Assembly (NCBI GenBank): GCA_964036295.1
Contig: OZ038464.1
Location: forward strand, 20,473,443 to 20,537,442
Reading direction: 5' to 3'
From: Plumapathes pennacea
Taxonomy: Eukaryota > Cnidaria > Anthozoa > Antipatharia > Myriopathidae
DNA: 64,000 bases
In this document: positions 2,951-63,010 of the stretch, piece by piece
How the letters are laid out: every line of letters starts with the position of its first letter
Numbering within the stretch: position 1 is the first letter of the stretch
Notes under the pieces: model-generated
Told to the model about the DNA's origin: nothing
Database searches by the model: none
What the model saw: the letters and a program-made list of their open reading frames with translations, nothing else
Translations under genes and position numbers: made by a program

Positions 2951-5069
2951 CTCACTGCTAATTACTCTCAAAGCAACTTCAGCTACGGATGCGGTTTAAT
3001 GGGATTTATCTCGCTGTTTGGCTTCAAAACAAAAAGAAGGCGAAGGAAATAGTTAAATAAATCAAACTCCACTTTAGACATCTTTTGAGAAATAATTACA
3101 CTGGAGTGCTTCTCACTGGCTAATAAATTGTTCTTTGATGGGTCGTCGGTGTTTCGTAAAGAGGTAGAATTAAATGTACACAGGTTCTTAAGCGCGCGTT
3201 GCTTCACATTTGAGAAAGCAAATAAGAATTATGCAATACAAATTGCGTCCGAAACCTGGGCGCAATGGTCCGCAAATCGTCACTGAGCATTATTCACTTT
3301 TAAAAATATCTGTGGTGGGTCTTGAAGCTGCCATCACAAGGCATGTTTTTTGTTATAACAAACAAGCTGCCGTAAACCGGTGGGAAAATTGCGAAGCCTA
3401 ATTGAGACCAGAAGGGGGCTGAAATAATGTGATTTACAGGAAGATAAGTTCATAATCGAATTTTCTCCTCCCTGTAATGACAGCAGTCATTTAGGTGTTT
3501 GTTGTACTGCCCTAATCTGCCACAGGAGGTGAAATGAAAATGTGGAGCCGGCGATAGGCATTATGAGGAGATTCAGCCAGCACACCGCTGTAATTTCTCT
3601 TATCAATAACTCAAAACCTTTAAAATGCGCTTCACTTCAAAGTGATTTCCTCTGCACATTAAATTTCAATTATATGCAACTTCTTGAAGCTACACGTGAA
3701 TTGCATATTGGAAGATATTGAACATTTCAAGAGATCAAAGACATTGAATAAACATTTCCTTGCAAATCCAGTGTATCACGCGAAATATAAAACTCGTGCA
3801 ATGTGCTTATCAGTTCCAATAAACACAACTGCACATCATACAACCAGCACAGACACCCCACCCGCCAAGAAAAGGCTTTGGTACTGCTGTTCGAAGCCAT
3901 GCAAAAGAATCCTTTCAGCACTGCGCTGACCTCTGAGTTCCAGTCGGGGCTCAATGGATATCGATAAGAACTTTCCGTCGCTGACTCAGCGGTTGTAATT
4001 TTTTGGGGGGAGTCCCTGTAGTTTCTCGGCTTCTTTCTCCTTCTTCTCAATTTCTACTTAAATTGACTCTTTCTGCTGATGAAGCCTATTCACACAAAAA
4101 TTTCAAACAACAACTTGAGTGAGACCAGGGCCAATCTGGGGCACTTTAAAAGTGCATGGGGAGGCTCGCCCAGACTTTCAACTCCTTGACCTTTATTATA
4201 CCAATATGGGGTCAAAATAGCGACTCTTTTGCATATCTCTAGTAAAATTTTAACCCCTTTTCGTACCTTTGAACGGGAGGACGTTTAGAAAAAACGCACG
4301 CGATAACTCGGCAACGCGGCAGTTTTTGCGAAGACTTCTAATCGAGGCAAGAGTTTTAGAACCCCTGTGTGATGTCAATATGACTTCTTTTCGGCGGCCG
4401 TTCTTAACGACTCTTTATTGAAATCCTAAAAAGCATTGTTTTTCTACACCCTTTCTTATGCCTGAGACTTGAAAAGACACCCTGTGTGTAAAAAACAGCG
4501 GAACAACTCTGCCAATCAGGAAGGAAGTGGGTTATTAACAAGCCCTTCCTATCCATCATAAAACAATGTGAACCCTGTGACCCTAAATCAGCATTTTAAA
4601 AGCCCGGTTTTACTGGTACAGTGGAGTTTTGTCCTTGAATTTATACAACACATTTGGAAGGTTCTGAACGTGCAACCGAGCGGAACGAAAGTATAGCGAA
4701 TAACCGATTATTTTGTATAAAGTAACCCCATGTACTTTACGAATGTTACTGGGATAGCTTGTTTTTACATCCTGCTGTTGTCAAGCAAAACCTAAACAAA
4801 CTTGAAGGCACAACTGAAATCATACGCTGCTACATGCGGGCTAATTTGTGTGGCTTCTGCAAGCCTTCAATATAACGAGTTAACACTTCTATAAATTAAA
4901 TCTGTTTCCTCAACTGTCGCTTAAAGTGTGAAGGCCTGCTGTAGGCGCCAGCGCGTCTAGCGCTCTTTGCAGAGGAATAAAAAAGTGATTGAGATAAAAG
5001 GTGGTGTCGCTTAGCACCAACAACGGCGCTAATTGTGTACATCGCGCAGTCGTTTTCTGATAATCTTTT
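2951..5069. other. Intergenic, no gene seen
   Basis: AT-rich sequence between the Gbx promoter and a foldback repeat. No conserved coding exon, RNA gene or internal repeat recognised. It may hold distal Gbx control elements, but nothing visible proves this. Confidence 0.4.
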
Positions 5070-8200: not shown

Positions 8201-8403
8201 AAATAAAGCCCCTGTTTACATGGGAGGGTGACCTACCTAGAAGGGACACCCTGCTAGAAGGGTCAGAAGATAGCCCCCCTTCACATGCCAAAAAATATTC
8301 TTGCGACGTCACCACTTTGGAACGATGTTTACCCTTAACCATCCTCCCCTGGGGCCAAGTTTTGGACGGGCGCGGCTACTAAGCAAAACCAAGATGGCGC
8401 GCT
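5276..8403. other. Intergenic with poly-A tracts, no gene seen
   Basis: No gene recognised. Two long A-tracts occur at about 7370-7391 and 7696-7719, possibly tails of old retroposed copies, but no retroposon body was identified next to them. The last part (8210-8400) is GC-richer and resembles dispersed repeat sequence. Confidence 0.4.
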
Positions 8404-8579
8404 GTGTCACGCAATTTGCGACTCAATACAGGAATTGCACCGGATCACGATTGGACGATATAAATAGCATAATGGTTACACAAGTCAGATTACGTAATTC
8501 ACAAATGTGATATGAATATTTGATTTGGCTTGTGAAATACCAAACACATATATACTCTGGTATATTTTTGAACATTGGA

Positions 8580-10730
8580 TTTAGAAATATTTAAGGTTCT
8601 GGAGGGTTTTTAGTGGGATTAGTGCACCAAATCCAACAGACAATGGCGATGACTAGGTAGATATCAAACTTGCAGTGTTTATTACAGCAACAGCAGCGTA
8701 AAATTTGTTTATAGTAGAAATATTTTGTAGCCGTTCTTAGCAGGATCCCGACCATCCTTAGCTTGATCCCGAACATTGGACTTAGAAATATTTAAGGTTC
8801 TGGAGGGTTTTTAGTGCACCAAATCCAACAGCCAATGGCGATGACTAGGTAGATATCAAACTTGTAATGTATATTACAGCAACAGCAGCGTAAAATTTGC
8901 TTATATTACTAGAAAACTTTTGTCGCCGTTCTTAGCAGGATCCCGACCATCCTTAGTTGGATCCCGAACATTGGACTTAGAAATATTTAAGGATCTGGAG
9001 AAACTTTAGTGCACCAAATCCAACAGCCAATGACGATGACTAGGTAGATATCAAACTTGTAATGTATATTACAGCAACAGCAGCGTAAAATTTGTTTATA
9101 TTAGAAAAATTTTGTCGCCGTTCTTAGCAGGATCCCGACCATCCTTAGCTGGATCCCCGCGAACATTGGACTTAGAAATATTTAAGGATCTGGAGAAACT
9201 TTAGTGCACCAAATCCAACAGCCAATGGCGATGACTAGGTAGATATCAAACTTGTAATGTATATTACAGCAACAGCAGCGTAAAATTTGTTTATATTAGA
9301 AAAATTTTGTCGCCGTTCTTAGCAGGATCCCGACCATCCTTATTTAGATCCCGAACATTGGACTTAGAAATATTTAAGGTTCTGGAGAGATTTTAGTGCA
9401 CCAAATCCAACAGCCAATGGCGATGACTAGGTAGATATCAAACTTGTAATGTATATTACAGCAACAGCAGCGTAATATTTGTGTATATTAGAAAAATTTT
9501 GTCGCCGTTCTTAGCAGGATCCCGACCATCCTTAGCTGGATCCCGAACATTGGACTTAGAAATATTTAAGGTTCTAGAGGGTTTTTAGTGCACCAAATCC
9601 AACAGCCAATGGCGATGACTAGGTAGATATCAAACTTGTAATGTATATTACAGCAACAGCAGCGTAATATTTGTGTATATAAGAAAAATTTTGTCGCCGT
9701 TCTTAGCAGGATCCCGACCATCCTTAGCTGGATCCCCGCGAACATTGGACTTAGAAATATTTAAGGTTCTAGAGGGTTTTTAGTGCACCAAATCCAACAG
9801 CCAATGGCAATGACTAGGTAGATATCAAACTTGTAATGTATATTACAGCAACAGCAGCGTAAAATTTGTTTATATTAGAAAAATTTTGTCGCCGTTCTTA
9901 GCAGGATCCCGACCATCCTTAGCTGGATCCCCGCGAACATTGGACTTAGAAATATTTAAGGATCTGGAGAAACTTTAGTGCACCAAATCCAACAGCCAAT
10001 GGCGATGACTAGGTAGATATCAAACTTGTAATGTATATTACAGCAACAGCAGCGTAAAATTTGTTTATATTAGAAAAATTTTGTCGCCGTTCTTAGCAGG
10101 ATCCCGACCATCCTTATTTAGATCCCGAACATTGGACTTAGAAATATTTAAGGTTCTGGAGAGATTTTAGTGCACCAAATCCAACAGCCAATGGCGATGA
10201 CTAGGTAGATATCAAACTTGTAATGTATATTACAGCAACAGCAGCGTAAAATTTGTGTATATTAGAAAAAATTTGTCGCCGTTCTTAGCAGGATCCCGAC
10301 CATCCTTAGCTGGATCCCGAACATTGGACTTAGAAATATTTAAGGTTCTAGAGGGTTTTTAGTGCACCAAATCCAACAGCCAATGGCGATGACTAGGTAG
10401 ATATCAAACTTGTAATGTATATTACAGCAACAGCAGCGTAAAATTTGTATATATTAGAAAAATTTTGTCGCCGTTCTTAGCAGGATCCCGACCATCCTTA
10501 GCTGGATCCCCGCGAACATTGGACTTAGAAATATTTAAGGTTCTGGAGGGTTTTTAGTGCACCAAATCCAACAGCCAATGGCGATGACTAGGTAGATATC
10601 AAACTTGTAATGTATATTACAGCAACAGCAGCGTAAAATTTGTTTATATTAGAAAAATTTTGTCGCCGTTCTTAGCAGGATCCCGACCATCCTTATTTGG
10701 ATCCCGAACATTGGACTTAGAAATATTCGC
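8580..10730 (+). repeat. Tandem satellite array, 192-195 bp unit, ~11 copies
   Basis: The anchor AACATTGGACTTAGAAATAT begins at about 8772, 8967, 9162, 9354, 9546, 9741, 9936, 10128, 10320, 10515 and 10707 (a first variant at ~8573), so spacing alternates between 195 and 192 bases. Each unit carries AGTGCACCAAATCCAACAGC, GACTAGGTAGATATCAAAC, ATTACAGCAACAGCAGCG and GTTCTTAGCAGGATCCCGAC. Variants repeat every four units (774 bases): the 9162 and 9936 units share GGATCTGGAGAAAC and the 9354 and 10128 units share CTGGAGAGATTTT. The four-unit block was therefore duplicated as a whole, giving a small higher-order repeat. No conserved open frame spans the unit. Confidence 0.92.
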
Positions 10731-10734
10731 TACG

Positions 10735-11800
10735 AGGATCCAGTTCGGAAAAGAAAAGGCCGTCGTCACCCAAACCGTAAAACATTACTTTCAAAATTAT
10801 ACCAGAGTATACACGTGTTTTATATTTCACAAGCCGAATCAAGCAATTCTAAACCACTGAATTTGGTTACTCAATGCTCATGATCTCATCGCCTCGTTTC
10901 ATTGCCGAGTTCACGGCCTCTACACTCGCCGGTGCATCCTGTATTTATAGTGTCAACAGATAAATACAGGAATCGCACCGACTTCAACGACGCTAAAATT
11001 TCCATTTCTAAGTCCAATGTTCGGGATCCAGCTAAGGATGGTCGGGATCCTGCTAAGAACGGCGACAGAAGTTTTCTAATATACACAAATTTTACGCTGC
11101 TGTTGCTACAATATACATTACAACTTTGATATCTACCTAGTCATCGCCATTGGATGTTTAATTTCGTGCACTAAAAACCCTCCAGAACCTTAAGTATTTT
11201 TAAGTCCAATGTTCGGGATCCAGCTAAGGATGGACGGGATCCTGCTAAGAACGGCGACAAAATTTTTCTAATATAAACAAATTTTACGCTGCTGTTGCTG
11301 TAATGTACATTACAAGTTTGATATCTACCTAGTCATCGCCATTGGCTGTTGGATTTGGTGCACTAAAGTCTCTCCAGAACCTTAAATATTTCTAAGTCCA
11401 ATATTCGGGATCCAACTAAGGATGGTCGGGATCCTGCTAAGAACGGCGACTGAATTTTTCTAATATAACAAATTTGACGCTACAAGTTTGATATCTACCT
11501 AGTCATCGCCATTGGCTGTTGGATTTGGTGCACTAAAAACCCTCCAGAACCTTAAAAATATTCGCTCAAATTCTACAGTCTCGCCAACAGTCTTACTATA
11601 AACCACCTTCGCAACTTCGAAAAGTTACAGGAAACTGTTTGAGAAGTCAAACACGTAAATTAATCGAGCGAGGTGAGTTTTCACGGTGCTACAAGGATCC
11701 GGTTCGGAAAAGAAAAGGCCGTCGTAACCCAACCCGTAAAACATTACTTTCAAAAATATACCAGAGTATATATGTGTTTGATATTTCACAAGCCGAATCA
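10735..11800 (+). repeat. Direct repeat pair inside the satellite element
   Basis: About 110 bases starting GGTTCGGAAAAGAAAAGGCC (CAGTTCGG in the first copy) occur at about 10738-10845 and again at about 11699-11805, in the same orientation. Both end with the ATTTCACAAGCCGAATCAA motif that also forms part of the inverted ends. The first copy lies right after the plus-strand array and the second after the minus-strand units, as expected if two related elements were joined. Confidence 0.75.
11003..11560 (-). repeat. Three satellite units in inverted orientation
   Basis: The same unit as in the main array, reverse-complemented, with boundaries near 11200 and 11395. The third unit is shortened by loss of the CAACAGCAGCG segment. 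Together with the plus-strand array this makes a long, interrupted inverted repeat able to fold back. Confidence 0.85.
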
Positions 11801-11914
11801 AATATTCACATCACATTCGAGAATTACGCAACCTGACTTGCGCAACCATTATGCTATTTAGATCGTCCAATCGTGATCCGGTGCAATTCCTGTATTTAGT
11901 CGCAAGTTGTCACG

Positions 11915-14900
11915 CGTAGGACCAACTACCATGTTTTCATATTTTTCAAGGGAAAGCTACACGGAATACATCCGAACATGATAAGGTATGCATCTATCTA
12001 CATATATATATATATATATAGTGTTGAATTTATATGTCAGTACTAACTGATACCCGTTAAACTTATCAAGCGGCCAATAACAAATTCCTAGCAGAAACAT
12101 TCTAAAATCCGTCACGGCTGATTTTTTTTTTCAGTATAGTGCAACGTTTAGTACATATGTGATAAATATCGGTCATGAGCGGCCTGAGATATTTTTGAAG
12201 GACTGAAGGCTATTTTTTAAATTTTCATAAATTTGAAAAAATTCATGCCAGTGCGGAAAAAAAACAAAGGTAACCAAAGGTAATCTAAGGTAAACAAATG
12301 CAACCAAAAGTAAACTAAGGCAGCTGAAGATAAAACGCAAAAGACACGGTTATATATCTATACTCTGACGCAGATTTGAAACTAATTCTGTCACAAGAAA
12401 CATTAAAAATTTATGTGCCTTATGAAGCCGGACTTGATCGCTGATCGTTCCGCATGCCGAAAACCTGTTTTGTATCAGTAAGTTCGTACTTTGAGCGAGT
12501 GCTCTCGGCCAGATTCACGGCCATCTATCGCCAAATCCTTTGTTTGTCCTATAACGTTTTCTGGGTTGTCCAAATTCTTTGATATTTATTGTTGTTCGCG
12601 AGCACTGCGGCCGAGTTTGCACTATTTTTCTGCAGAATATTGCGACTCGTAGTCCTGGCAACTCTCAAAGTACATTTTCTCCTTACTACCTCAAAGCAGG
12701 AAGATGTAGTGAGGTATGGAGAACATGGCACCTGATCCCCTGCAAAGCAACTAAGGCAGCTAATCCAGTTGGGACCCCGAATAGTGTTTCTTCGTAAATA
12801 TAGTGAAATATAGTAGGAATAATTTGTATTTCAAGACTCGTGGCGTAAAGAGTTAAAAAGTTACTGATATAGATCTGAAATGCGTAGCGGCTACAAAGTA
12901 TGTGGCCATGGTAATCAGCTAAGTATTACCAACTGCATGGAAATTGCTTCATCTTGCTTGTAATTCTTTATTTTTTCTTAACTGGGCCCAGAGAAGCCGT
13001 TCACAGGATAACTATGCACAGCTGGTTTAAATTTGTGAACCGAGATATGTAGTCATAAGACACGCCCCAAATATTCCTGCTCAGTTTCACAGCCAACATA
13101 ATCGAGATTACATGAAGACACGCGAGACCATAAAAACACAATCAAATGAGTGAAGTGGCAGCATCTTATTAATAGCTTAATCAAACACAGGCACACGATG
13201 TCGCCGAAGCATGCACGATCCCGCACTGCCGTAATAAAAACTCAAGTTACACCCGACAGTAGGCTTATAGTGGATTAACCGATTTACTCAAAATTGGTTT
13301 TGGAGAACTATCGTGCAAGCCGTTTATACAGCGTCAAAAGAGCACCGCTGGATTGTCCATTTTGTGGGTTTAGCTGAGGGTTTCCTCTCAATTGGACGTG
13401 CGTTTCCGTTCGATCACAGAAAATCAAAGTCTCTTTCCTCAGATATCTAATTGACACAGACTTGAAGGCAAACGAGATACTCTTAGATAACTTTGCCGAG
13501 GTAGAATCATACCAGCCGTGCCATGGCTCCATTTCCAATTTGATTGGTGCGAAGACAGACAAAAGAGTTGAGTTTTCGTCGCGGCTCAAAACTAACTGTC
13601 AGAAGCGTTCGCCAGCAGGTATCATCACACAGAAGACATACGTCGCCCACCGTCTTTCGTCCCGGCATTGTTGGCATGAAGAGAGAAATTAAAGCTCTAT
13701 TTCTCTTTATGCTCTGTCCTTATGAATGCTCCCATTCACTAGAGTGTATGTCCACACCTGAATGTAAGACATCCTCTTAAAAAAAACTCAGACTGAGCGA
13801 ACCATGCACATAAACTCGTACCACATATGATGTACAGTAGTGATATGAAGCACACGCAGCAGGCCCTATGACTTGGAATTAAGAGATCGCAGTCTCGATA
13901 CAAACCGACTCGAGAAACAGCAATAAACTGACGTTGCGGGTTTGTCAAGTATGGCGACAAAGGTACATTCAAGATTAGGGCGGGAGCTGGGCCCGCTCAC
14001 TAGGACTCAGTGTCAACTATTGGCTCAAGTATATAGCTTCCTTTCAGAGTCAGATAGTAAAAACATATAGTATGACAATGTAGCTTGATTTTTTTCATTG
14101 CATTTGTTTCGATAGGCATTTAAGACTGAATTGTAGCTTAAAGATTTGTTTGGGAACCGAAGCTGGGCTAATAAGACAATTTAAACTGCGTCCATTTAAA
14201 ACGAGCTCGGTTTCGAAACTGAGGATTTTAATTTTCGAAATTCCAAACCTCAACGCGTGAGGAAGTTATTATTTACAAAACCAAAATAACTCCGCGGTAC
14301 GGATGCTTACATATTGACTGGGAACCGCAAGGGAAAAGAAGAGAGCTTCGTGCTAAATATACCACAACTGCGGAACGTTCCTCTTCTACTGCGAAACAGA
14401 ATTCTTGAACTTTACCTCAAAAGAAGACTATGCGATTCTAACAAGTCTGACACAGACTACAGAATGTGATTGTTGAAAGTGTGACTTGTGGCTAGTTGAG
14501 GTAAATGCGGTTTTTCGTAATGGTTTTGCCATGCGTCGCTGCGAGAGGGTGTGGCATAAACGTCAACACATCTTTGCGCATTTCGGCTGCGGATACAAAA
14601 ACATGTCTTCTGATTGTTGGAGTCTAGAGTGGTTATTAGCGATATTTGTCAGCTTAGCTCATAGTCTCTTAATCTACATGTTTTGTTTGAAAATATACGC
14701 CGCTTATTCTACGTTATGTCATATATATTGCGTCCAATTTCGATCAGTGTTTCCTGCCTGTGCAAAGGGGTACTATTAAAAGTAATGGAAAAAACGGAAG
14801 GCGATACCCAATACATGTGCCGCGAGGAAACTTTGTCCGGAATCGCTTGAAGAATGATCCGCAAAGGCAACAGTTAGTGTACTCTTGATACGTTTTCCAG

Positions 14901-55223: not shown

Positions 55224-58200
55224 GCATAGTTATCGGTCATTTGGCACACTTTTCGGTTAAAGTTATAATACGCATTGCTTCATCAAATGCACAGCAGTTG
55301 GCACGAAACTTAAGGGGTATTGGGAGAAACCTTAGCTGAACAGGTGGGTAAGGTATGGTAAAGATTTGCAACATCCCTGAAGAAATGGAGCATTTCTCCC
55401 GGAGGCTGTGTTTTCGGTCGGGAAACTTTGAAGCGGTCTACCACGTTACCATGGCAACGGATCTCAAAGCCATGCGCAGGAAAAATAGAACTTGGATAGG
55501 GCTATGCCCTGACGAAGTACGAATAGTTAGCCTTGGAATGGGAAAGAGCGGCGCAGTTAAGAAGTTCAGGGCCAGTTAACATCATACTGAAACATGGTCG
55601 ATCATTTCCCGAATTTAGTGTAAAAATAGGCAACTCAAATAACTCCCCAACGAATAGACCAAATGAAACCATTTTACTCATGATATGTTGGGCTGCCAAG
55701 GCAGACGTGATGGTGTGTTCGAGTGTGCAATCGATTACGTAATAGCCAAGATCTACGATTTTTCTGCGATAACGGTCCAAACGACCGGTGCTTTTCCCAC
55801 CACAATGCAATGGTGATCCAAAACTGTATGCAAGCACCACAGAAAATTGGACCAGAACTATTAAACAGTTTAGTTGAAGCTATCAAGAGCATGAATGTTC
55901 CATTCCTTATATGATTTAGTTTTACAATGAGCCGTGGGAATTTTTTAAACTTCGGCGCTCTGAGATTGCACTATTATGAACACTGAGCACTGGAAAAATA
56001 CCAAATGATCACAGTCGATGGTGTCTAATATTCTCTTTATCATATTGATGTGGGAGTTTGACTACTAGAGTTTTGAATTCCAAATGGACAAAAAACCTTA
56101 TAACTCAGATACTACTGACCGGTCTTATTCCCGCAAAAGTAAAATAATTTCGTCATTCATCCCATTTCATGGTAGATCTTTGTAAAAAGGTCTGTTTTAA
56201 TAGGCCCTCGGGTTTGCCCGACCATATAAACGAAAGAATAAGAATTTAGCGCTTCAGTCTGTTTAATAAGTGACAATTAGATAAGAAAATCACAGTGCCG
56301 GTTTCACTACACAATCATCTTCATAATACAATGGAATCCCGATAACTCGAACCTTCTAATCAAGGGAAACGAAAATTGGTTCGAGTTATCGGGAGTTATT
56401 GGGAGTAAAATTACAGTGTTAACAGGCGAAGGGGAAACGGCTTTTGGTTCGAGTTGTCGAGGGTTCGAGATATCGGGATTCCACTGTAAGTTCTCTTTAA
56501 CAAATAACGAGTTGAACATCAAAACGCCTTCATCAACAAAAGCACGTGCATTCATTATATGTATCCTACGTATTTATAATGTTCATAAACGTGTTCAGAC
56601 TAAACATGTTCGTCATCAGAATCATATCAGGCTAGTAACAGCCTCAAACATGCTCGTAATGAGAGTCAGTATGATCATCATCAGCATCAAGACTTCATGA
56701 TCATGTTCATCAATTGTGTTTATATCCGTGTTCATAATCAAACTCAAATGTGTTAACAGTGTTCGTAGTCACAGCATTAATCAGACTCGAAGATGCACAT
56801 AACGTCTTTCTCATTTGTTACGCTGCATCTGATAGTTCCTTCGCATGTGCTTAACCTTTTGGTAGGCCCTCTCTGCGCCTTCTGCCTCAACCATGTCGTG
56901 AGTATCTGGATTGATGCGGAGTTTTCTGATGATAGATGCCCTTGTGGGTACCCTTGCCCCGGTTATCTCAGATTGGCAAACAGACCTTATTTTCTCTGTG
57001 TTTGCCCTTGACCAGTGTCGCCGTCTCGAGCCCCAGCTGGCAGTCTCAGATGGCGGAATGACGTTAGAAAACCCAGAGAGCAGCGTTACCTCGTCGTCAT
57101 CTTGAGATTCCAAGGAGGCTCTCTTCTTATGGTCATCCATTGGCTGGGGTCCCTTCACATCAGACTCCATGCCCTGCTGTTGATCTTTAGGTTTCTTCTT
57201 CGTGGAGGAACACTCATCCACGTCAAGGAGAGTAGCTACAGTATCGTGCGCTTCTGACGCTGCCTTTATCTTGTTTACCAGGTTGTACCACCTGTCAGCG
57301 GTGCTCCGGCTGTGGCCCATCTTGCTTGCCAGGCTGTTCTTCTCTGGCGAGCTTAGACCTCTGGTATTGGTCACGACAAAGTGCCGTAACATGCTTGAGC
57401 AAAACGCTGACAGACTTTCCTCTCTCAGGCAACCTGTACATACAGCGAACTGTTTTAGGGCGTGGTGCACATGCGAGTTGGTATACGGCGATCCAGTTGA
57501 ATTGAGGAACATTGCATCTGTCTTGACTACCATTTTGTGCCAAGAGTGGGCGAAAATGATGGATGTACTTGCCTATCATCAGCTTAAGGTCGTTGGAGAA
57601 GTTGAGAATTAGTCCTCCTCTGGTTCTGGTTGTCTTCTGGTTAGAGATGTGGACGGTCCACTTGTCATCCACCATCCGGCCATTCTCGAAGGTGCTTAGG
57701 GTAATCTCGGCCACTGGGCCAGCCCTACTGGCATTCTCCATGTTGATGTTGTAGATTAAGAGGTTACGGACTGCAACCGCGTCCTCTGTGGTCAGCTTGT
57801 AGCGTCGTGGGTGCATGAGCATCTGTCTCATTTTCTGCACATGCTCTGAGGACTGGATGTTTTTCATTTCCTCTTTCGCTGGAAGATTTTTCTCGGCCTC
57901 CCATTCCACCTCAGCTCGTTGCTGTGCTATCGTTTTCCCCCACGCTTCTCTCCAGTTACTCTGGGCGTCTCTGAGATCTTCTAAAGCTTCCCTCTTCTCT
58001 GAGGACAGTGATTGGCGCATAGATTTCACGGCAAAGGACAGAAAACGCTGTAAGCTCGTAGAGTAGCAAGAGAGCGTTTTGCTGCAGTACCCCTGTGATC
58101 GGTCTTGTTTTCGCAGCTCTAGCTGGCGCTTGAAGAACTGCTTATAAACAAGGTCCTTCTTGAGGAATACATCCAGGTCTCGCGCGTCGGGGTCTACAGC

Positions 58201-59638
58201 CTTGGCGATGGTTGCCACATGATGGCACATTTGGCGAATCATGGCTGGTGATTTTTGGTGCCATCTGGGGTGGCAAGGTGTAAATTCCACCCTCTTAGCA
58301 CTACCTGAAAAGCAGACGTCGCTGTGCATGTGCCTTGGCTTCTGGCGCTTGTTCTTGTCCTGCTGTGGCTGTATGGGGGCGCACCTCTGCAGCCTCCCGG
58401 TCAGCTGATCGTTCTGCTGTTAGTGGAGCAGCAATCTCTTTCCTGGTTGCTGTAAGGGGACGTTCTGGTTGTACCGAATTGTCACTGTCCTGTTCCTTTT
58501 CCTGGTCTTGTTCTTCATCTTCTGGTCCAACAACTTGTAGAAGTTTATTTGCATACTGGCGCAAAAGAGACCTGGCGGAGCGCTCGTCATTCATACCCTT
58601 TGGTAGAAATGCCAAGTGTTTGCCAACACGGCAAAAGTGGTGGCTCTGGAGGGTTGACGTCAAGAAGGCAGCTCGCTGAGACAAATGTGGTTGCTTATCA
58701 TCAGTGAGAACCTGCTCTATCAGCAACTCAATTGCTTGAGCCAACCATTAAACTTTTTGTGCCGCCAGAAAAATATGCACGTAAAATTTGCTCGCGAAAC
58801 TAATAAGTATTTTTTTATTTTTCACTTCTTTTTGGCTGACTTTTACTCTTTCTGATATAAATCAAGGAACTACAAAAAGTCTGGTTCACATTCGATAGGC
58901 AGTTTTTGCGTTTCTAGCGGACAAATAAACAAACACACTCCAGATATTTATTGATTACACTTGGCAGCCTGTGCTATAGTCCACCCATTTGTGCAGAAAA
59001 TGCGCACTTTTGACCAAACCTCAGATCCTCTAAATCTTTCAGCAAACCTTACTGGGAGTATAGCGAAGGTGACAATGTAACATTTGACCATATAAATGAA
59101 GCCGCCCTTGAGAGATTAGCACAAATCAACGGTTAACAGATCAAAGTTTTCAAACAAAGGCCATACTATAGCTCGCTTCTGTGCTATATCTTTGTAACTT
59201 ATTTAGCAAAATAGGGCAAATGTGTTGCAAAACGTCCCATTCTAGTCCCAAGAAACTCGCCTGACAGTTTGAAGGGATTCTAAAATTTGAGAAAAATGCC
59301 AGTGCTATACTGAGTCCATGGCATTTCTGAAGAAAATGTACACTTTTTGCCAAACTTCAAAATGCTTTGAAACTCTCAAGACATTTCTCAATGAATAGAA
59401 AAGGTTGTATTCCTACGTTTGACCATAATAATGCGTGGGTTCTCAAGAAATACAAAATCTAGTCATGACCGGTCATGTTCCCATCATGACCGGTCACGTT
59501 CCCACCATGACCGGTCACGTTCCCAAATGACCGGTCACGTTCCCATCATGACCGGTCACGTTCCCAAATGACCGGTCACGTTCCCAAATGACCGGTCAAG
59601 TTCCCAAATGACCGGTCAAGTTCCCACAATAACCATGC

Positions 59639-62539: not shown

Positions 62540-63010
62540 CCGATAAATGCATCTGTATTTATAGTATGTATTCCATATATGGAACAACTGGACGAGCAAA
62601 TATCTGGCCCTGATGAGCAAATACATTTCCTGCCCCAATGAGCAAATACGCAACCTTGAATAATAATTAGCCGTAATACGTGGCGCACGAGCAAATTCAT
62701 GACATTGAATAATAATTAGCCGTTACTTTGCAACTGGATAAACAGTGTTTGGACTATAGTTTAGACTTAGATTTAAGGTTAGGGTTAGAGTTAGGGTTAG
62801 GGTTAGGTTTAGGGTCAGGATTAGGGTTATGGTCAGGGTTAGGCCGTAATTTTCGTATATGTATCACTATTTCTCACTCGCATCAATTCAATTTACGACT
62901 AGTTATTATTCAAGGTTGCGTATTTGCTCATTGGGGCAATGTATTTGCTCGTCTGGCTGTGCTTTATAAGAATACGTACTATATATACCTATCGATAAAT
63001 CGCATCTAAA
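62540..63010. repeat. Inverted-repeat element with telomere-like core
   Basis: Left arm (to about 62672) and right arm (from about 62895) are reverse complements over roughly 60-100 bases: CCCCAATGAGCAAATACGCA and CCTTGAATAATAATTAG on the left against TTATTATTCAAGGTTGCGTA and TTTGCTCATTGGGGCAATGT on the right. Further out TATAGTATGTATTCC pairs with a diverged AGAATACGTACTATA. A second short direct copy of GAATAATAATTAGCCG lies at about 62707. Confidence 0.72.
62772..62843 (+). repeat. Interstitial TTAGGG telomere-type repeats
   Basis: About ten TTAGGG-type hexamers, some mutated (TTAGAG, TCAGGA, TTTAGGG), in the loop between the arms of the inverted repeat. TTAGGG is the telomere repeat of cnidarians as of most animals. 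Confidence 0.85.

Follow-up and report, generated by a model that had tools for sequence, protein, structure and literature searches.

A 195-bp satellite probably carried by a non-autonomous Mutator-like foldback transposon in Plumapathes pennacea

The window, the 64,000-nucleotide stretch of DNA analysed here (C3:20473443-20537442), belongs to a 290-Mb assembly of 24 contigs. A 3.5-kb element with inverted ends and target-site duplications lies at positions 8414-11907. Its left target-site duplication, TGTCACGCA (8405-8413), is identical at 8/9 positions to the right one, TGTCACGCG (11908-11916), and the target before insertion would have held a single TGTCACGC. The left terminal inverted repeat (8414-8572, plus strand) has the terminus ATTTGCGACTCAATACAGG, and its counterpart on the right (11741-11907, minus strand) has the terminus ACTTGCGACTAAATACAGG. 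The family terminus is ACTTGCGACTAAATACAGGAATTGCACCGG, which takes the form ATTTGCGACT on the left side in the window. A repeat scan delimits inverted arms at 8412-8572 and 11749-11909 that are 161 nt long and 93% complementary, and these are long terminal inverted repeats as in Mutator. An ATGGCG motif (8394-8399, plus strand), common to many insertion sites of the family, adjoins the insertion point.

Four names are used for the component sequences. END is the right end, 174 bp as first cut (to 11914); SUB is the 181-bp subterminal region; SPC is the second part of the spacer, 159 bp; and U is the satellite unit. Inside the left END is a plus-oriented arm (8570-10727) that consists of a partial unit and then 11 units of 192 or 195 bp, the last of which ends at unit position 177. 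It is followed by an inverted internal fragment of SUB (1-53) and END (114-174) at 10729-10842 on the minus strand, and by SPC at 10845-11003 on the plus strand, in which two copies of the terminal motif lie inverted to each other around 10930-10982. A minus-oriented arm of about three units (11004-11536), the third of them degenerate, precedes SUB (11560-11740, minus strand). SUB extends the right end inward by 181 bp, and the left end lacks it. The full order is END+, U+ x 11, SUB'- and END'- fragments, SPC+, U- x 3, SUB-, END-. Long stretches of the two arms could pair with each other, for example 10058-10510 with 11023-11475 (453 nt, 94% complementary), as would be expected of a foldback element. 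The initial annotation had described inverted ends around plus- and minus-oriented units of 192-195 bp, and the 161-nt arms at 93%, with 11 plus and about 3 minus units, agree with that description.

Three other features of the window were observed. Two overlapping frames on the minus strand (56811-58419) resemble a tyrosine recombinase by eye and have no Pfam match. An internal TTAGGG array of 11.8 copies at 80% matches is found at 62773-62843, which corresponds to C3:20.5 Mb of 28.3 Mb. A homeodomain frame is also seen and fits an animal genome.

The satellite arrays were confirmed by Tandem Repeats Finder. The starts of successive plus units, 11 in all, are 192, 195, 195, 192, 192, 195, 195, 192, 192 and 195 bp apart. 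The minus units comprise two good ones and the degenerate third, which is 81-85% identical to the others. According to the initial annotation, the array has a tetrameric organization produced by duplication of whole tetramers. Units 3-6 are indeed matched by units 7-10, with identities of 99.0, 100, 99.0 and 97.9%. However, the pattern is smaller than described, since identity is not raised between units 1 and 5 (94.3%) or between units 2 and 6 (90.9%). Mean identity at lag 4 (96.8%) is the best among lags 1-8 and is equalled by 166 of 20,000 random unit orders. The two 774-bp blocks themselves (9006-9779 and 9780-10553, both plus strand) differ at 8/774 positions. In the same register outside this pair, there are 58 mismatches in 382 bases before it and 21 in 174 after it. 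Because near-identity is limited to the two blocks and falls away outside them, the '774-bp higher-order repeat' amounts to a single tetramer duplicated once in tandem, with no long series and no general tetramer organization.

Sequences of this element recur in the genome as a dispersed family of low copy number. Searches gave 36 matches for the left end, 44 for the right end with SUB and 43 for the spacer. The spacer matches bear on the palindromic terminal motif near 10930-10982, which is present as the initial annotation reported and had been taken there as a hint of fusion between two elements. A fusion at the window site was rejected. The palindrome is covered in 19/43 rows of the spacer search, the window's own included, so it is inherited within the family and is no trace of a local event.

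When copies with shared flanks are merged by hand and counted once, ends are present at 18 independent sites. The C2 copies at 16.96-16.98, 17.46 and 18.09 Mb, for example, share flanks and count as one site. So do L021 and L033, which share only 98 bp of flank that is inversely repeated within L021. In L021 (C1:14446181-14449339), a flank segment of roughly 100 bp that includes the motif AAGATGGCGGAC recurs inverted beyond the END copy, perhaps through a hairpin-type rearrangement.

Most ends are single, and both full-family ends occur at only five places. Target duplications are identical at 9/9 positions in two of these paired copies, C6:3745847-3747541 and the tiny C7:16493220-16493367 (about 150 bp), and at 8/9 in the window (8414-11907). 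These lengths lie in the 8-10 bp range of Mutator-type duplications. The fourth copy, C1:31002869-31003546, has no target duplication. The fifth, C1:3137915-3141561, retains only the right-side sequence GAGCACTGT with which its right flank starts, and the left one is missing; the same nine bases (9/9) stand directly left of the sister copy C5:4564953. Shorter relatives also carry the family terminus, such as C5:2035560-2035755. At C7:159474-159515, two end motifs abut as a 42-bp palindrome, perhaps an extreme deletion product.

Copying by segmental duplication, with no transposition, would account for the flanks shared by C1a and C5a and by the C2 copies merged above. However, 18 sites with distinct flanks are left after merging, and C6b, C7 and the window carry different target duplications, which makes this explanation of the family hardly credible.

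Arrays are linked to the ends through recurrent joins. The 13 END-linked array loci include ten that were read at their joins and one that was read partly (C2:4.75 Mb, L008). In 7/10 loci (window, C6b, C1a, C5b, C9a, C6a and C1b), unit position 1 leads to SUB position 181 via 21-30 bp. In 6/10 (window, C5a, C1a, C8b, C6a and C1b), unit position 177/178 leads to the internal SUB position 53/54. The number of units is variable. C1a and C5a have similar left flanks (89.9% over 485 bp, 95.3% over 215 bp), and neither arm has the same number of units in both. The mini copy measures about 150 bp, others have a few to 14 units, and a chain of about 35 units by coordinates (C2:4753688-4762395), linked to SUB and SPC, is the largest array among the matches listed. 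Constant joins with varying unit number fit a single capture, then transposition, then local growth. The initial annotation proposed that a mobile unit of foldback type carries the satellite, and these results bear this out: separate genome searches with the unit and the end recover other copies with the same ends, other unit numbers and 9-bp target duplications.

A different relation between ends and arrays can be envisaged, in which an array that was already in place, and never moved, received the ends as unrelated insertions. Other repeats do lie within these arrays. X, a separate repeat of about 430 bp with at least 41 matches (best 40 of 262 candidates scored), lies at the SPC/U join in C6a, C5a, C1a and C1b and is absent there in the window. 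However, the same unit-SUB joins are present on several contigs, and outer duplications frame ends and array together. C6:3745847-3747541, with its 9/9 duplication around both, largely refutes a passive array, which we regard as very improbable.

The cargo of these ends is not always the 195-bp satellite. Some END copies (interiors of L016, L013 and L050) carry other tandem repeats in place of U, and these are 15-bp and 21-bp minisatellites with periods read from translated frames. The 15-bp type is found at C7:1467859, and the 21-bp type at or beside C3:8989362 and C8:9193154.

The satellite also exists away from the ends. At least 292 matches to the unit are present in the genome (best 40 of 243 candidates scored, 150 of the 292 matches listed), and the listed matches, together with one locus seen in L049, define 37 array loci. 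The initial annotation had asked whether the unit occurs outside these ends. Matches to END, SUB or SPC lie within 3 kb of 13/37 array loci, and no such match is near the other 24/37, so the array is housed by the element in part but is not confined to it. With these 24 loci in view, the element is one carrier of the satellite but may not be the sole one. Eight of the 24 unlinked arrays were read (L047, L051, L052, L053, L056, L057, L058 and L059), and 16 were judged from coordinates alone.

The unit forms homogeneous tandem arrays at many loci, as is typical of a satellite. Among 95 full units, identity averages 94.7% for units of the same arm, 94.0% for units on different arms of an element and 92.4% for units of different loci, and 59/95 units have their nearest neighbour within their own locus. 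Units near END are as similar to units elsewhere as each group is within itself (END-END 92.7%, END-other 92.1%, other-other 92.8%). A tree of the 95 units has 11 changes between END-linked and other arrays, a count that has no shuffled control and is not used as evidence. Comparisons of the unit with END, SUB, SPC and X give no match at E 0.5 or better, and the sole match of the unit, to L069 (see below), is at chance level (E 0.43). Derivation of the unit from END, SUB, SPC or X was rejected, as no similarity was found.

Some unlinked arrays have contexts of their own. In L051, copies of X at 2377-2805 and 4524-4944 enclose an array. The 6-bp sequence CGAGGT flanks the block on either side, and TAGATA is present where X meets the array. 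This X-array-X block looks like a composite transposon carrying the satellite array. Listed X matches lie within 3 kb of 6/37 array loci, and L056 contains X fragments. L058 has a 44-bp inverted repeat around its array, and unit-like sequence is also present beyond the right copy. Another satellite, whose period is about 90 bp, adjoins the array in L053 (3057-3335) and L059 (4665-8008) and is near the array in L049 (1-888). No recognized context was found around the arrays of L047, L052 and L057.

These arrays raise the possibility that the 195-bp satellite is a separate family that was caught by the MULE ends and independently by other elements. The 24 loci that lack nearby element sequence, the dissimilarity of the unit to END, SUB, SPC and X, the equal likeness of units near the ends and elsewhere, and the L051 block with its CGAGGT flanks and TAGATA joins are all consistent with an independent satellite. 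However, arrays that lack ends may be decayed former elements, and just 8 of those 24 loci were read. The joins fixed in 7 and 6 of 10 loci favor one capture followed by transposition over repeated captures, and the largest array seen is linked to SUB and SPC. An independent family is a serious possibility, although we would give it somewhat less than an even chance, and it is compatible with a transposon that carries the satellite.

A candidate source of transposase points to the superfamily of this transposon. A pattern search with the terminus gives 35 matches (0 in the reversed control), and there are 11 MULE Pfam matches in the genome. One of these (C2:19097175) lies 4.7 kb from a terminus match with 2 mismatches (C2:19102174). 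The locus, L069 (near C2:19096641-19102194), was chosen where the two lists met; chance alone would give about 0.013 coincidences of this kind. A frame of 513 amino acids in L069 matches ZSWIM1-3_RNaseH-like (3.3e-9) and MULE (6.4e-6; score 27.0, just below the cut-off of 27.6), and another frame has a weak SWIM match (0.008) with a score below the cut-off. The L069 terminus differs at 2/21 bases, its END match is just 41 bp at 78%, and no second end was found within the 6.6 kb examined.

A further frame in L069, of 296 amino acids, has no Pfam match. Its protein matches C7:12875356-12876236 (60% over residues 61-296, 46% over 6-61, one stop), which is 0.9 kb inside the END/SUB/SPC copy C7:12874433. 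A peptidase-like reading of this frame, made by eye (HWTLCYVD...GDTLGW), was dropped, being unsupported by Pfam or by a PDB sequence search. No convincing transposase was found at the C7:12874433 copy, and none was recognized by eye in the frames listed for the single-ended C2 copies at 17.46 and 18.09 Mb. The L069 transposase protein was matched at three loci only (C2, C5:14.25 Mb and C3:10.50 Mb), none of them beside a listed full END. Among the family copies, none was found that combines both intact ends with a transposase. The near-identical terminus and the shared 296-amino-acid frame suggest that the family is tied to Mutator through its cousin L069 and not through a complete autonomous copy.

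Insertion sites of the family have a sequence motif in common. ATGGCG or its complement CGCCAT is present within 60 bp of the ends in 15/29 flanks, or at 11/18 sites after merging of copies with shared flanks; the other 7/18 END sites have neither within 60 bp. As background, either sequence is present in 1.3% of 60-mers across the window and in 3.0% in flanking DNA at a distance of 0.8-1.5 kb. For this motif, which was picked once the flanks had been seen, the binomial chance of 11/18 is 5e-13 at a 3% rate and 8e-10 at 6%. Dropping two sites with repeated flanks leaves 9/16 (8e-8 at 6%). The motif resembles the YY1 promoter motif, and its enrichment suggests targeting of promoter-like sequence. 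The phrase 'YY1 motif' is absent among the matches listed in the literature on insertion preference.

Taken together, the window feature is most probably a non-autonomous Mutator-like (MULE) foldback transposon that carries a satellite. A MULE transposase from a relative such as L069 would bind the ends in trans and move the element. Insertion would generate a 9-bp duplication, and the array would be carried along. The array could then grow or shrink at each site by unequal exchange, slippage or gap repair, and local growth in the window would have produced the single 774-bp tetramer duplication. Arrays that lose their ends would persist as ordinary satellite DNA.

Elements of this kind are already known, and in the literature on foldback and Mutator elements the closest are Tetris of Drosophila virilis (PMC4079207) and Tm1 of root-knot nematodes (PMC3169594), as far as the available parts of these reports describe them. 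Tetris is the closest in design, a likeness that is of design only, as sequences were not compared. It is described as a non-autonomous foldback element with 8-10 bp duplications, suggested to belong to the Mutator superfamily, with tandem repeats of about 220 bp inside its inverted repeats that vary in number by copy and also form arrays away from the ends (PMC4079207). The window element has all of these features in common with it: foldback structure, duplications, internal repeats of variable number and arrays elsewhere. In contrast, the available text reports no transposase for Tetris, whereas the window family has a cousin with a MULE transposase. TIR-220 has a 37-bp stretch in common with the Tetris terminal domain, whereas the window unit has nothing detectable in common with END, SUB or SPC. 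A further difference from Tetris as described there (PMC4079207) is the association of the window family ends with minisatellites of 15 and 21 bp.

Tm1, a Mutator/foldback element, resembles the window family in its composite inverted ends of variable length, its mostly 9-bp duplications, and its MITE-like and transposase-bearing members. However, its repeat motif is about 14 bp, and the portion of the report considered here describes no satellite-sized cargo (PMC3169594). Muta1 and other mosquito MULEs, in the available account, are similar: terminal inverted repeats exceed 100 bp in 12/14 families, duplications are 8-9 bp long, the interiors of non-autonomous derivatives are foreign, and insertions are enriched in and near genes. 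They differ in having subterminal repeats of 9-15 bp and, as stated there, no sequence preference on reinsertion (PMC5225508). Satellite capture is also noted, in the available part of a review, for miDNA4 of Xenopus, a Tc1/mariner MITE that belongs to another transposase superfamily (PMC12628747). A network of satellites and transposable elements has already been argued for molluscs (PMC5139131, in part). Coral MITEs form tandem arrays, and the available text on them does not describe the design of the window element (PMC2872659). The window family is close to the published Tetris, and what it adds is the transposase-bearing cousin, varied tandem repeats under one set of ends, a possible second vehicle and a motif preference.

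The second vehicle and the motif preference can be joined in a tentative proposal, toward which we lean less than against. One satellite might be passed between unrelated vehicles, as internal cargo of the MULE and by X, which, once duplicated within an array by unequal exchange, would move X-array-X as a composite transposon. MULE insertion next to ATGGCG-type promoter-like motifs would then seed arrays beside gene starts.

These observations bear on the old question of how satellite arrays reach new sites and grow. One chromosome-scale genome holds the vehicle, its ends and duplications, a candidate source of transposase, and copies at different stages. Sister copies of a single insertion that have different unit numbers allow growth to be measured. 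The presence of the same ends with other minisatellites suggests that foldback MULEs may be general nurseries for tandem repeats.
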